Positions 19,918 to 28,371 of a stretch of DNA of 64,000 bases are shown here, piece by piece. The notes under the pieces were generated by a model. That model did not search any database and had not been told where the DNA came from. It saw nothing but the letters and a program-made list of their open reading frames with translations. The DNA lies in NCBI RefSeq assembly GCF_003614435.1, contig NZ_CP025546.1:5580001-5644000 (forward strand), given 5' to 3'. Position 1 is the first letter of the stretch. Each line of letters begins with the position of its first letter. Source of the stretch: Mycobacterium paragordonae (GTDB lineage: Bacteria > Actinomycetota > Actinomycetes > Mycobacteriales > Mycobacteriaceae). The position numbers and the translations under genes were made by a program.

Positions 19918-21639
19918 TTGTCTTCCGAGTTGTCTTCTAAGGCCCCTTCTGGCGCCGTGCGTATCGCGAACTGCTCCGGTTTCTACGGTGACCGGCTGTC
20001 TGCGATGCGCGAGATGCTCACCGGCGGAGACGTCGACTACGTAACCGGTGACTACCTTGCCGAATTGACCATGCTGATCCTGGGTCGCGACCGGATGAAG
20101 AACCCCGAACGCGGCTACGCGAAGACCTTCCTCACCCAGCTCGAAGAGTGCCTGGGCCTGGCCCATGAGCGCGGCGTGCGCATCGTCACCAACGCTGGGG
20201 GCCTCAACCCCGCCGGGCTGGCGGATGCGGTGCGGGCACTGGCCGAGCGCCTGGGCGTCCCGGCGCGGGTGGCCCACGTGGAAGGCGACGACCTGCAACC
20301 CCGCGCGGCCGAGCTCGGGCTGGGCACGCCGCTGACCGCCAACGCCTACCTGGGCGCGTGGGGCATCGCGAATTGCCTCGACGCCGGAGCCGACGTCGTG
20401 GTCACCGGCCGGGTCACCGACGCCTCGGTGATCGTCGGGTCGGCGGCCGCGCACTTCGGCTGGGGCCGCACCGACTACAACCGACTCGCAGGCGCCGTCG
20501 TCGCCGGCCACGTCATCGAATGCGGCACACAGGCCACCGGAGGTAATTTCTCGTTCTTCACCGAGGTGAAGGACCTGACTTATCCCGGGTTCCCGATAGC
20601 CGAGGTCTATGACGACGGTTCCTCGGTGATCACCAAGCATCGGGGCACCGGTGGGCTGGTCAGTGTCGACACCGTGACCGCGCAGTTGCTCTACGAGATC
20701 ACCGGTGCCCGCTACGCCAACCCGGATGTGACGGCCCGGATGGACAGCATTGCGCTGACCTCCGAGGGCCCAGACCGGGTGCGGATCAGCGGTGCAGTCG
20801 GCGAACCTCCGCCACCGACGCTGAAGGTGTCGCTGAACAGCATCGGTGGCTTCCGCAACGCGATGACGTTCATCTTGACCGGGTTGGACATCGAGGCGAA
20901 GGCGGAGTTGGTGCGACGCCAGCTCGAGGCCACGCTGACCGTCAAGCCCGCCGAGCTGGAATGGACGCTGGCCCGTACCGACCACCCCGACGCCGACACC
21001 GAACAAGGCGCCAGTGCGTTGCTGAGCTGCGTGGTCCGAGACCCCGACCCGGCCAATGTGGGCCGCAAGTTCTCCGGCGCCGCAGTCGAATTGGCGCTGG
21101 CCAGCTATCCCGGCTTCACCTCGACCGCACCGCCGGGCGATGGTCAGGTGTACGGCGTGTACACGCCGGGCTACGTCGATGCCGGGTCGGTGCCGCACAT
21201 CGCCGTGCATCCCGACGGCACCCGTGTCGAGATACCCAGTGCAACAGAGACTTTGACGCTGGAGGCAGCGGGCGATCCGGAACTGCCCGAACCGCTTGCC
21301 GCCCAACCCACCCGGCGGGTGCCGCTCGGCCTGATCGCCGGCGCCCGCAGCGGCGACAAAGGCGGCTCGGCCAACGTCGGGATATGGGTCCGCACCGACG
21401 ACGAGTGGCGCTGGCTCGCGCACACGCTGACGGTCGAACAGCTGAAAAGGCTGCTGCCCGAAGCCGCCGACCTGCCCGTCACCCGGCACCTGCTACCCAA
21501 CATTCGGGCGGTGAACTTCGTGATCGAGGACATTCTTGGCCAGGGCGTGGCCTACCAGGCCCGCTTCGATCCGCAGGCAAAGGGGCTGGGCGAATGGTTG
21601 CGCAGCCGTCACATCGACATTCCGGAGAAGTTGTTATGA
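19918..21639 (+). CDS. AtuA-like protein (DUF1446), acyclic terpene utilisation family
   Basis: 573 aa from TTG at 19918; GGAGGGAGGA ends 9 bp upstream and no earlier start has a ribosome-binding site. The N-terminal two thirds are DUF1446 (VRIANCSGFYGDRLSAM, YVTGDYLAELTMLILGRDRM, VTNAGGLNP, GADVVVTGRVTDASV), and the C-terminal 110 residues are the AtuA C-terminal domain (IAGARSGDKGGSANVGIWV). AtuA is essential for citronellol and geraniol catabolism in Pseudomonas, biochemical role unresolved. It is first of six coupled genes; its stop overlaps the next ATG by 4 bp. The counterpart is Rv0976c. Confidence 0.88.
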   Translation: MSSELSSKAPSGAVRIANCSGFYGDRLSAMREMLTGGDVDYVTGDYLAELTMLILGRDRMKNPERGYAKTFLTQLEECLGLAHERGVRIVTNAGGLNPAGLADAVRALAERLGVPARVAHVEGDDLQPRAAELGLGTPLTANAYLGAWGIANCLDAGADVVVTGRVTDASVIVGSAAAHFGWGRTDYNRLAGAVVAGHVIECGTQATGGNFSFFTEVKDLTYPGFPIAEVYDDGSSVITKHRGTGGLVSVDTVTAQLLYEITGARYANPDVTARMDSIALTSEGPDRVRISGAVGEPPPPTLKVSLNSIGGFRNAMTFILTGLDIEAKAELVRRQLEATLTVKPAELEWTLARTDHPDADTEQGASALLSCVVRDPDPANVGRKFSGAAVELALASYPGFTSTAPPGDGQVYGVYTPGYVDAGSVPHIAVHPDGTRVEIPSATETLTLEAAGDPELPEPLAAQPTRRVPLGLIAGARSGDKGGSANVGIWVRTDDEWRWLAHTLTVEQLKRLLPEAADLPVTRHLLPNIRAVNFVIEDILGQGVAYQARFDPQAKGLGEWLRSRHIDIPEKLL

Positions 21640-22784
21640 ACATCTGGACCACACCCGAGCGCGAGCAATTGCGCAAGACGGTGCGCTCGTTCGCCGAACG
21701 GGAGGTGCTGCCCAACATCGACGAGTGGGAACGCACCGGCGATCTGCCGCGCGACCTGCACCGGCGCGCCGGCGAGGCGGGCCTGCTGGGGGCGAACTTC
21801 CCGGAGTCCGTTGGCGGCGGCGGCGGAGACGGTGCCGACGCGGTGCTGATCTGCGAGGAGATGCACCAATCCGGAGCTCCCGGAGGCGTTTTCGCGTCGC
21901 TGTTCACCTGCGGCATCGCCGTGCCGCACATGATCGCCTCGGGTGACCAGCGGCTGATCGACACCTATGTGCGCCCCACGCTGGCCGGCGAGAAGATCGG
22001 CTCACTGGCCATCACCGAACCCGGCGGCGGCTCCGACGTCGGGCACCTGCGGACCTCCGCGGTGAAAGACGGCGACCACTACGTGATCAACGGCGCCAAG
22101 ACCTACATCACCTCCGCGGTGCGCGCCGACTTCGTCGTGACCGCGGTGCGTACCGGCGGCCCCGGTGCAGCGGGCGTTTCGCTGATCGTGGTGGACAAGG
22201 GCACACCGGGGTTCGAGGTGTCGCGCAAGCTGGACAAGATGGGCTGGCGTTCCTCGGACACCGCTGAGCTGTCCTACACCGACGTGCGGGTTCCGGTAGA
22301 GAACCTGGTCGGAGTGGAGAACACCGGCTTCGCCCAGATCGCCCAGGCATTCGTGTCCGAGCGCATCGCCCTTGCCGCCCAGGCGTATTCGAGTGCGCAG
22401 CGCTGCCTGGACATCACCGCACAGTGGTGCCGCGACCGCGAGACCTTCGGTCGCCCGTTGATTTCACGGCAGTCGGTACAGAACACCCTGGCCGAGATGG
22501 CACGGCGGATCGACGTCGCGCGGGTGTACTCGCGCCGGGTGGTGGAGCGCCAGCTCGAAGGTGACACCAATCTGATCACCGAGGTCTGCTTCGCCAAGAA
22601 CACCGCCGTCGAGGCCGGGGAATGGGTGGCCAACCAGGCCGTCCAATTGTTCGGCGGCATGGGCTATATGGCCGAATCCGAGATCGAACGCCAGTACCGC
22701 GACATGCGCATCCTGGGAATCGGCGGCGGCACCACCGAAATCCTCACCGCGCTGGCCGCCAAGCTCCTGGGATACCAGTCATGA
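21636..22784 (+). CDS. fadE13: Acyl-CoA dehydrogenase FadE13 (isovaleryl/citronellyl-CoA DH-like)
   Basis: 382 aa from the ATG that overlaps the upstream stop (ATGA). The FAD-binding signatures (LAITEPGGGSDVGHLRTSA; GWRSSDTAELSYTDVRVP) and C-terminal helices are complete. The catalytic Glu usually found in the C-terminal EGT motif is replaced (GIGGGTTEI), while helix G has SERIALAA with Glu at the position used by isovaleryl-CoA dehydrogenase. This places the enzyme with dehydrogenases acting on branched acyl-CoAs. It should produce the enoyl-CoA that the AccA2/AccD2 carboxylase then carboxylates. Confidence 0.9.
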   Translation: MNIWTTPEREQLRKTVRSFAEREVLPNIDEWERTGDLPRDLHRRAGEAGLLGANFPESVGGGGGDGADAVLICEEMHQSGAPGGVFASLFTCGIAVPHMIASGDQRLIDTYVRPTLAGEKIGSLAITEPGGGSDVGHLRTSAVKDGDHYVINGAKTYITSAVRADFVVTAVRTGGPGAAGVSLIVVDKGTPGFEVSRKLDKMGWRSSDTAELSYTDVRVPVENLVGVENTGFAQIAQAFVSERIALAAQAYSSAQRCLDITAQWCRDRETFGRPLISRQSVQNTLAEMARRIDVARVYSRRVVERQLEGDTNLITEVCFAKNTAVEAGEWVANQAVQLFGGMGYMAESEIERQYRDMRILGIGGGTTEILTALAAKLLGYQS

Positions 22785-27586: not shown

Positions 27587-28371
27587 TGGACACTCTCGTC
27601 GAGTACGCCCGGGAGGGCGTGGTTGCCCGGCTCACGCTGAACTCGCCGCACAACCGCAACGCCTTGTCGACCACGTTGGTCACCCAGCTGCATGAAGGGT
27701 TGCGCGCCGCCGCGGCGGACCCGGCGGTACGGGTGGTGGTGCTCGGCCACAGCGGCGGCACCTTCTGTGCAGGCGCCGACCTGTCCGAGGCCGGCGGTGG
27801 CGACCCGTTCGAGCTGGCCGTGGCGCGGGCCAAGGAGATGACCGCGCTGTTGCGCGCCATCGTCTCCTCGCCGCGGCCGGTGATCGGCGCCATCGACGGC
27901 CATGTGCGGGCCGGCGGATTCGGTCTGGTTGGCGCGTGCGACATGGTGGTGGCCGGGCCGCGCAGCACGTTTGCCCTGACCGAAGCGCGCATCGGCGTGG
28001 CGCCGGCGATCATCTCGCTGACCCTGCTGCCGAAGCTGTCGGCCCGGGCCGCCGCACGGTATTACCTCACCGGGGAAACCTTCGGCGCCAGCGAAGCCGC
28101 CGAGATCGGTTTGATCACCCTGGCCGCCGACGACGTCGACGCCGCGGTGGCCGGCCTGGTGGCCGACGTCGGACGCGGCTCGCCGCAGGGTTTGGCGGCA
28201 TCCAAAGCGCTCACCACCGCCGCCGTACTGGACGGCTTCGATCGCAATGCCGAGCGGCTCACCGAGGAATCGGCGCGGCTGTTCGTGTCAGATGAGGCGC
28301 GCGAAGGCATGCTCGCGTTCCTGCAGAAACGGCCGCCGAGCTGGGTCTCCGACGCAGGTCAGACGTCCTGA
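27586..28371 (+). CDS. echA7: Enoyl-CoA hydratase/isomerase family protein EchA7
   Basis: 261 aa, start shared with the fadE12 stop (TGATG). The crotonase oxyanion segments (GTFCAGADLSE; IDGHVRAGGFGLVGACDMV) are conserved. Of the two catalytic glutamates of rat enoyl-CoA hydratase, the second is kept (TEARIGVAP), but the first, in the usual GGGCE, is Gly or Leu here (GGFGL), so simple hydration by the two-Glu mechanism is doubtful. It is the last gene of the operon and probably acts on the carboxylated enoyl-CoA (3-methylglutaconyl-like). In H37Rv the csoR-ctpV copper genes lie immediately beyond, absent here. Confidence 0.9.
   Translation: MDTLVEYAREGVVARLTLNSPHNRNALSTTLVTQLHEGLRAAAADPAVRVVVLGHSGGTFCAGADLSEAGGGDPFELAVARAKEMTALLRAIVSSPRPVIGAIDGHVRAGGFGLVGACDMVVAGPRSTFALTEARIGVAPAIISLTLLPKLSARAAARYYLTGETFGASEAAEIGLITLAADDVDAAVAGLVADVGRGSPQGLAASKALTTAAVLDGFDRNAERLTEESARLFVSDEAREGMLAFLQKRPPSWVSDAGQTS

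Follow-up and report, generated by a model that had tools for sequence, protein, structure and literature searches.

A six-gene operon around accA2/accD2 of Mycobacterium paragordonae as a candidate atu-type module for branched acyl-CoA esters

Among the closest described relatives of the genes analysed here are two systems. The first is the acyclic terpene utilization cluster of Pseudomonas (atuABCDEFGH), for which the clusters of P. citronellolis (L109) and P. aeruginosa PA7 (L108) served as references. The second comprises the leucine/isovalerate (liu) cluster and the mycobacterial AccA1/AccD1 locus, which share with the genes studied here a dehydrogenase and a carboxylase pair followed by a hydratase and lyase logic. 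Ehebauer et al. (2015; PMC4347857) reported an AccD2-AccA2 complex like that of AccD1-AccA1, and in the sections of that paper cited here its role is left open. A 2017 paper likewise states, in the part cited, that AccD2 function awaits further study, and the corresponding part of a 2022 paper (PMC9283954) says that no role could be determined for the operon despite its strong upregulation in hypoxia and stationary phase. Here we analyse this operon (atuA, fadE13, accD2, accA2, fadE12 and echA7) in M. paragordonae. The window, by which we mean the whole 64,000-nucleotide stretch studied, covers bases 5580001-5644000 of contig C1 (NZ_CP025546.1) in a genome of 7.22 Mb and 5 contigs.

Our results suggested that the operon is likely to encode an atu-type 'beta-decarboxymethylation' module acting on acyl-CoA esters above C5 that carry a 3-methyl branch, as isoprenoid-like chains do. 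FadE13 and/or FadE12 would introduce a 2,3-double bond into a 3-methyl-acyl-CoA, and AccA2/AccD2 would carboxylate the methyl branch (the gamma carbon) to give a 3-(carboxymethyl)-2-enoyl-CoA. EchA7 would then add water, generating the tertiary alcohol 3-hydroxy-3-(carboxymethyl)acyl-CoA, from which AtuA, possibly with a nucleotide, would release the former branch as acetate and leave a 3-oxoacyl-CoA for ordinary thiolysis. The sequence shows the gene set, its order and conservation, the loop of AccD2 and the AtuE- and AtuD-like residues, and a model of middling confidence gives the AtuA fold; which reactions take place in this organism, which dehydrogenase acts first, whether a nucleotide is needed and what the substrate is are inferred. 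Together the six genes resemble a full set of enzymes for taking a methyl side-branch off terpene-like fatty chains, and AccA2/AccD2, a carboxylase long without an assigned reaction, would gain a likely job in one concrete series of reactions. The features of the operon are:

19918..21639, plus strand: atuA, 573 aa, TTG start; AtuA domain at residues 14-427 and ferredoxin-like domain at 469-566; putative acetate-releasing C-C lyase
21636..22784, plus strand: fadE13, 382 aa; AtuD-like acyl-CoA dehydrogenase with Glu242 at the isovaleryl/long-chain-type catalytic place
22840..24435, plus strand: accD2, 531 aa; carboxyltransferase subunit with a loop of the geranyl-CoA-carboxylase type
23293..23325, plus strand: selectivity loop of AccD2, KEIFIPGGRMF, residues 152-162
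24432..26423, plus strand: accA2, 663 aa from GTG 24432 or 660 aa from ATG 24441; biotin carboxylase/BT/biotinyl carrier subunit
26420..27586, plus strand: fadE12, 388 aa; the other acyl-CoA dehydrogenase, with Glu244 where AtuD also has its Glu
27586..28371, plus strand: echA7, 261 aa, ATG start; crotonase-fold hydratase with an AtuE-like active site

The preliminary description of this DNA, made from the letters alone, had proposed a six-gene operon of an AtuA-like protein, two dehydrogenases, a carboxylase pair and a hydratase, coupled by overlaps except for one 55-bp gap. In support of this, the six plus-strand frames (19918-28371) are all free of internal stops, and Pfam agrees gene by gene: AtuA plus AtuA_ferredoxin, two acyl-CoA dehydrogenases, a carboxyltransferase, an enoyl-CoA hydratase and, for AccA2, biotin carboxylase, BT_MCC_alpha and biotinyl domains. 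The 55-bp gap separates fadE13 from accD2. The atuA/fadE13 and accA2/fadE12 junctions are 4-bp ATGA overlaps and fadE12/echA7 is a 1-bp TGATG overlap (the echA7 frame was analysed from 27583, with its ATG at 27586). Between accD2 and accA2, the frames share 4 bp (GTGA) when accA2 begins at GTG, in which case the coupling is as described, and lie 5 bp apart when it begins at ATG 24441. NCBIfam gave no match over a curated cut-off for AtuA (0 families), FadE13, FadE12 and AccD2, and none for AccA2 among the matches listed (25 of 45 families).

Compared with the P. citronellolis cluster, the operon holds the atu core set, namely AtuA (36% identity), a carboxylase pair of the geranyl-CoA carboxylase (GCC) type (AtuC 46%, AtuF 42%), an AtuD-type dehydrogenase (37%) and an AtuE-type hydratase (33%). 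The two systems share the AccD loop type, the Glu place of AtuD in FadE13 and FadE12, and the Gly of AtuE in EchA7. The Pseudomonas cluster in addition has the AtuB and AtuG dehydrogenases, the AtuH ligase and the AtuR repressor, none of which has a counterpart among the six genes (the rest of the genome was not searched), whereas the operon has the extra dehydrogenase FadE12 and the gene order A-D-C-F-(FadE12)-E. To equate the operon with the Pseudomonas atu cluster in gene content, as the preliminary description did, was therefore somewhat too strong. The broader proposal of an acyclic-terpene or branched acyl-CoA pathway gains support from the GCC-type loop and from a query with the Pseudomonas GCC: relatives of AtuA, FadE13, AccD2, AccA2 and EchA7 occurred together in 75 of the 80 loci kept out of 453 confirmed, mostly from Pseudomonas.

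Jurado et al. (2015; PMC4673880) state, in the part cited, that methylcrotonyl-CoA carboxylase (MCC) has an active-site Phe directly preceded by a 3-residue insert, whereas GCC has Gly at this position and no insert, and that exchanging the Gly/Phe residue moved substrate preference. Reading residue equivalence off alignments with the numbering of PMC4673880 and PMC4347857, we found that AccD2 carries Gly158 at the place of Gly162 of the Pseudomonas GCC (PaGCC) and Phe191 of the Pseudomonas MCC (PaMCC), and has no 3-residue insert ahead of it. Over the matching loop, the solved Pseudomonas GCC reads AEIFVEGARGF, and the solved Pseudomonas MCC and M. tuberculosis AccD1 chains read DEVFPDREHFGRIF. 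The loop thus supports a GCC-type assignment of AccD2, and the methylcrotonyl/geranyl-type pair of the preliminary description, which had suggested this active-site comparison, can be narrowed to the GCC side. Among the literature matches listed, none states that AccD2 is of the GCC type.

This loop type goes along with AtuA. In 44 AccD2-like genes from AtuA loci we counted 39 Gly, 4 Ala, 1 divergent and no MCC loop; all 80 loci kept from the Pseudomonas GCC query had Gly, as expected from how they were selected. Within 32 genomes, all AtuA-bearing, a search for carboxyltransferases of the AccD2 lineage (E <=1e-110) gave 58 matches in 31 of them. None of the 24 with an MCC loop had AtuA within the fetched ~9 kb on each side (two stretches were shortened by contig ends), as against 28 of 28 Gly types, 3 of 4 Ala variants and 2 of 2 divergent ones among the 34 without an MCC loop. 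Only L244 (G151 C4) departs from the AtuA association: its carboxyltransferase is of the AccD2 type but has Ala where Gly is expected, and the DNA fetched around it holds no AtuA. In a quick tree with the loop columns removed, supported by the SH-like approximate likelihood ratio test (SH-aLRT) only, the 27 MCC-loop rows (support 99), 47 AccD2-type rows (98) and six AtuC rows (100) formed separate clades.

Of the two dehydrogenases, FadE13 shares 37-39% identity with AtuD and FadE12 28%; FadE13 Glu242 and FadE12 Glu244 align with the same Glu of Pseudomonas AtuD, and neither protein has a Glu at the place typical of medium-chain acyl-CoA dehydrogenase (MCAD), in keeping with the isovaleryl-type placement of the catalytic Glu given in the preliminary description. 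FadE13 Glu242 also aligns with the residue that is Glu in human long-chain acyl-CoA dehydrogenase (LCAD) 8w0t and Gln in 8w0z. We take these positions, including the one that differs between 8w0t and 8w0z, to be the catalytic residues of LCAD, isovaleryl-CoA dehydrogenase and MCAD. Crotonases usually carry Glu at both catalytic places; EchA7 and AtuE have Gly at the first and keep the second, as judged from six Pseudomonas-type and nine actinobacterial sequences. Solved structures include 4zu2 (AtuE) and the near-identical-family enoyl-CoA hydratases 4knp and 3oc7.

For AtuA, a PDB search with the sequence alone gave nothing up to an E-value of 1, and one with the profile gave a single weak relative. 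A structure predicted from the window AtuA and 36 AtuA sequences (of 67 usable in the GCC-query loci; an alignment shallow in diversity) suggests a citramalate-lyase-like fold for the protein, which carries a PF07287 domain. This links AtuA to a structurally solved lyase, the AtuA-family citramalate lyase CmlA (9erq/9evf), which acts on the free acid and not on a CoA ester; unlike CmlA, AtuA has a fused C-terminal ferredoxin-like domain.

We also followed the operon through the surroundings (20 kb at most) of 60 AtuA matches, picked by hand and deliberately including low-identity paralogues, some of which have no carboxylase beside them. All six genes were found by score, in unchanged order, in 25 of them, which argues that the arrangement is not due to chance, and 44 hold an AccD2-like gene scoring 400 bits or more. 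Note that this limit left L076, a contig-end fragment with 399 bits, out of the loop count. An AtuA match was present in all 148 sampled genomes of the genus, own genome included, with a best E-value <1e-200 in 142 and of 1e-170 to 1e-161 in G045, G070 and G111. The three reduced genomes G075, G115 and G089 (3.2-3.3 Mb) had remnant-like matches only, and in them AccD2 was represented by fragments only (G089), by a stop-riddled best lineage match (G115) or by distant carboxyltransferases only (G075). The small assemblies G111 and G127 retain an accD2 frame without stops. In G125 the atuA match (C1:3303919-3305613) has one in-frame TAG, which could be an assembly error or early decay, in a locus (L073) that otherwise shows all six genes. 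Across the order, 124 of 200 sampled genomes had an AtuA match. In L082-L092, which come from further genera of this order, the AtuA paralogues (44-49% identity) have neither an AccD2- nor an AccA2-like gene within the DNA fetched, so that pathways of other tertiary alcohols probably also make use of AtuA-type lyases.

The alternative that survives best keeps the chemistry (carboxylation, hydration and AtuA cleavage of a tertiary alcohol) and applies it to a ring-derived or other non-isoprenoid unsaturated acyl-CoA. A precedent is the opening of naphthalene ring II in the AtuA-like ThnQS step, AtuA-family enzymes are tied to several tertiary-alcohol acids, and a GCC-type pocket alone does not dictate a geranyl chain. 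However, the gene set and the active-site residues resemble those of the acyclic terpene cluster, and we regard a non-isoprenoid substrate as rather unlikely.

A second MCC, making this a leucine/isovalerate operon, would fit the 48% identity of AccD2 to the AccD1 of the same genome and the BT_MCC_alpha domain of AccA2. It is contradicted by the loop, which has neither the MCC Phe nor the insert, and by the existence elsewhere in the genome of a leucine-type locus. AccD1 (C1:4761919-4763352), the second lineage member of this genome, carries the MCC loop DEVFPDRDHFGRIF and lies in a separate locus (L188) with an AccA1-like subunit, an acyl-CoA dehydrogenase, a MaoC hydratase, an HpcH/HpaI aldolase/lyase, a CoA-transferase and an AMP-binding enzyme. 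Its hydratase and lyase are thus unlike the crotonase and AtuA of the operon, and its dehydrogenase has no Glu at the AtuD place but one at the MCAD-type place. We assign L188 to leucine because of the published AccA1/AccD1 work: as given in the cited part of PMC4347857, an M. smegmatis accD1-accA1 deletion accumulated 3-methylcrotonyl-CoA and did not grow on isovalerate. The same part describes an accD2-accA2 knockout with no isovalerate defect and no methylcrotonyl-CoA build-up. These data speak against a C5 (isovalerate/leucine) role of the operon. A plain MCC duplicate was rejected on the loop and the separate locus, and we give the whole explanation very little chance.

Equally improbable is a lipid-synthesis carboxylase acting on acetyl-, propionyl- or long-chain acyl-CoA, a role held by other mycobacterial AccD proteins and suggested by the AccA2 essentiality discussed below: AccD2 scores 511 bits to AccD1 and <=214 to the other six of the genome's seven further carboxyltransferase-domain matches, M. 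smegmatis accD2 mutants have normal fatty and mycolic acids in the published account as cited, and on these scores and mutants we rejected it. The coupling to two dehydrogenases, a hydratase and AtuA points towards catabolism. An atu-type pathway would account for the negative tests of both leucine and lipid-synthesis roles.

Several results weigh against the atu-type assignment. Overall identity of AccD2 (46% to Pseudomonas AtuC, 48% to its own genome's AccD1) does not favour a GCC, and was dropped as a GCC/MCC classifier for want of separation. PMC4673880, in the part cited, describes propionyl-CoA carboxylase (PCC) as lacking the N-terminal helix of GCC and MCC beta subunits; the alignment of AccD2 starts at residue 3 with PaGCC and PaMCC and at 23-28 with most PCC chains, but with the MCC chains AccD1 and human MCC it also starts late (28 and 37), so that the start does not separate the types. 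In the tree, the AccD2, AtuC and MCC clades join at one unsupported fork and the program gives long-branch warnings, for which reason we do not claim AccD2 as the sister of AtuC. EchA7 scores 147.9 bits against the gamma-carboxygeranoyl-CoA hydratase model (curated cut-off 426) and passes that of a generic enoyl-CoA hydratase family, being the sole operon protein over an NCBIfam cut-off among the matches listed. The AtuA model is of middling confidence (predicted local distance difference test, pLDDT, 65.9), and 9evf is only 16% identical to AtuA. No ligase, alcohol dehydrogenase or regulator gene is present among the six. Finally, a 2017 paper (PMC5407890) cites, in the part used here, transposon data with AccA2 individually essential in M. 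tuberculosis; since a purely catabolic enzyme would not account for essentiality, this needs a second explanation.

Upstream of atuA we noted two further features:

19854..19869, no strand assigned: near-perfect 16-bp palindrome AACCTACCGGTTGGTT, putative operator, ending 49 bp before the atuA start
19900..19908, plus strand: ribosome-binding site GGAGGGAGG, 9 nt 5' of the atuA TTG start, read from the sequence

The palindrome looks like the operator of a candidate regulator, and is unlike the AtuR sites quoted in PMC9973270. Of 46 genus loci (from 44 genomes, with G105 counted twice as L018 and L068, and G076 as L026 and L069), 42 have a copy of AACCNACCGGTNGGTT with up to two mismatches upstream of atuA, as against none of the 44 other loci, from elsewhere or from paralogues; the backward-read control never came closer than three mismatches in the same 90 stretches. 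The window holds one match, without mismatch, against an expectation of 0.13 at <=2 mismatches, and 12 of 100 shuffles had at least one. At <=1 mismatch, the palindrome stands just upstream of atuA in 14 of 16 genus genomes; G008 has none, and G012 has a perfect copy far from atuA (C1:189462) and none before it. Outside the genus one of 10 genomes (G156) has a one-mismatch copy, and the backward-read control gave 0 of 26 genomes. No sigma-70-like site was found in a promoter scan of 19690-19960, and no Rfam match at gathering score in 19000-29500.

Further copies at <=1 mismatch number one in this genome and two in its relative G006. The copy here (L248 4131-4146, C1:5280630-5280645; one mismatch) lies in the short gap between a CoA-transferase III/alpha-methylacyl-CoA-racemase-like frame and a short-chain dehydrogenase/reductase (SDR) gene, both named by eye; G006 has a copy with identical letters, the gene surroundings being those of this genome only. 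A degenerate 16-bp pattern with one mismatch occurs at three places in this genome, one of them (L249) inside an oxygenase-like frame, as against one for the backward-read control, so a lone extra copy may be chance.

In M. tuberculosis, Rv0971c-Rv0976c rose 20-300-fold in hypoxia and stationary phase according to the cited part of PMC9283954, and operon members were detected in infected mice according to that of PMC4535907. As a tentative extension of the atu-type reading, with a small chance of being right, mycobacteria might use the operon at oxygen or carbon shortage to break down the isoprenoid tails of menaquinone, polyprenyl phosphate or further prenyl lipids, their own or those of the host. 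Such salvage would fit the induction in hypoxia and stationary phase, the retention in nearly all genus members sampled with decay in three reduced genomes, and the one-mismatch operator copy beside the racemase-like and SDR genes. On whether mycobacteria degrade isoprenoids or squalane by way of a carboxylase, the literature matches listed held nothing useful.

The operon is flanked by what we take to be rpmF- and mprAB-like genes upstream and a DUF1707-like frame downstream. A PE_PGRS gene, present at the rpmF-mprAB place in M. tuberculosis, is not seen here. By eye, a 57-aa frame like ribosomal protein L32 (rpmF) lies on the minus strand at 19507-19680, between atuA and the mprAB-like two-component genes.

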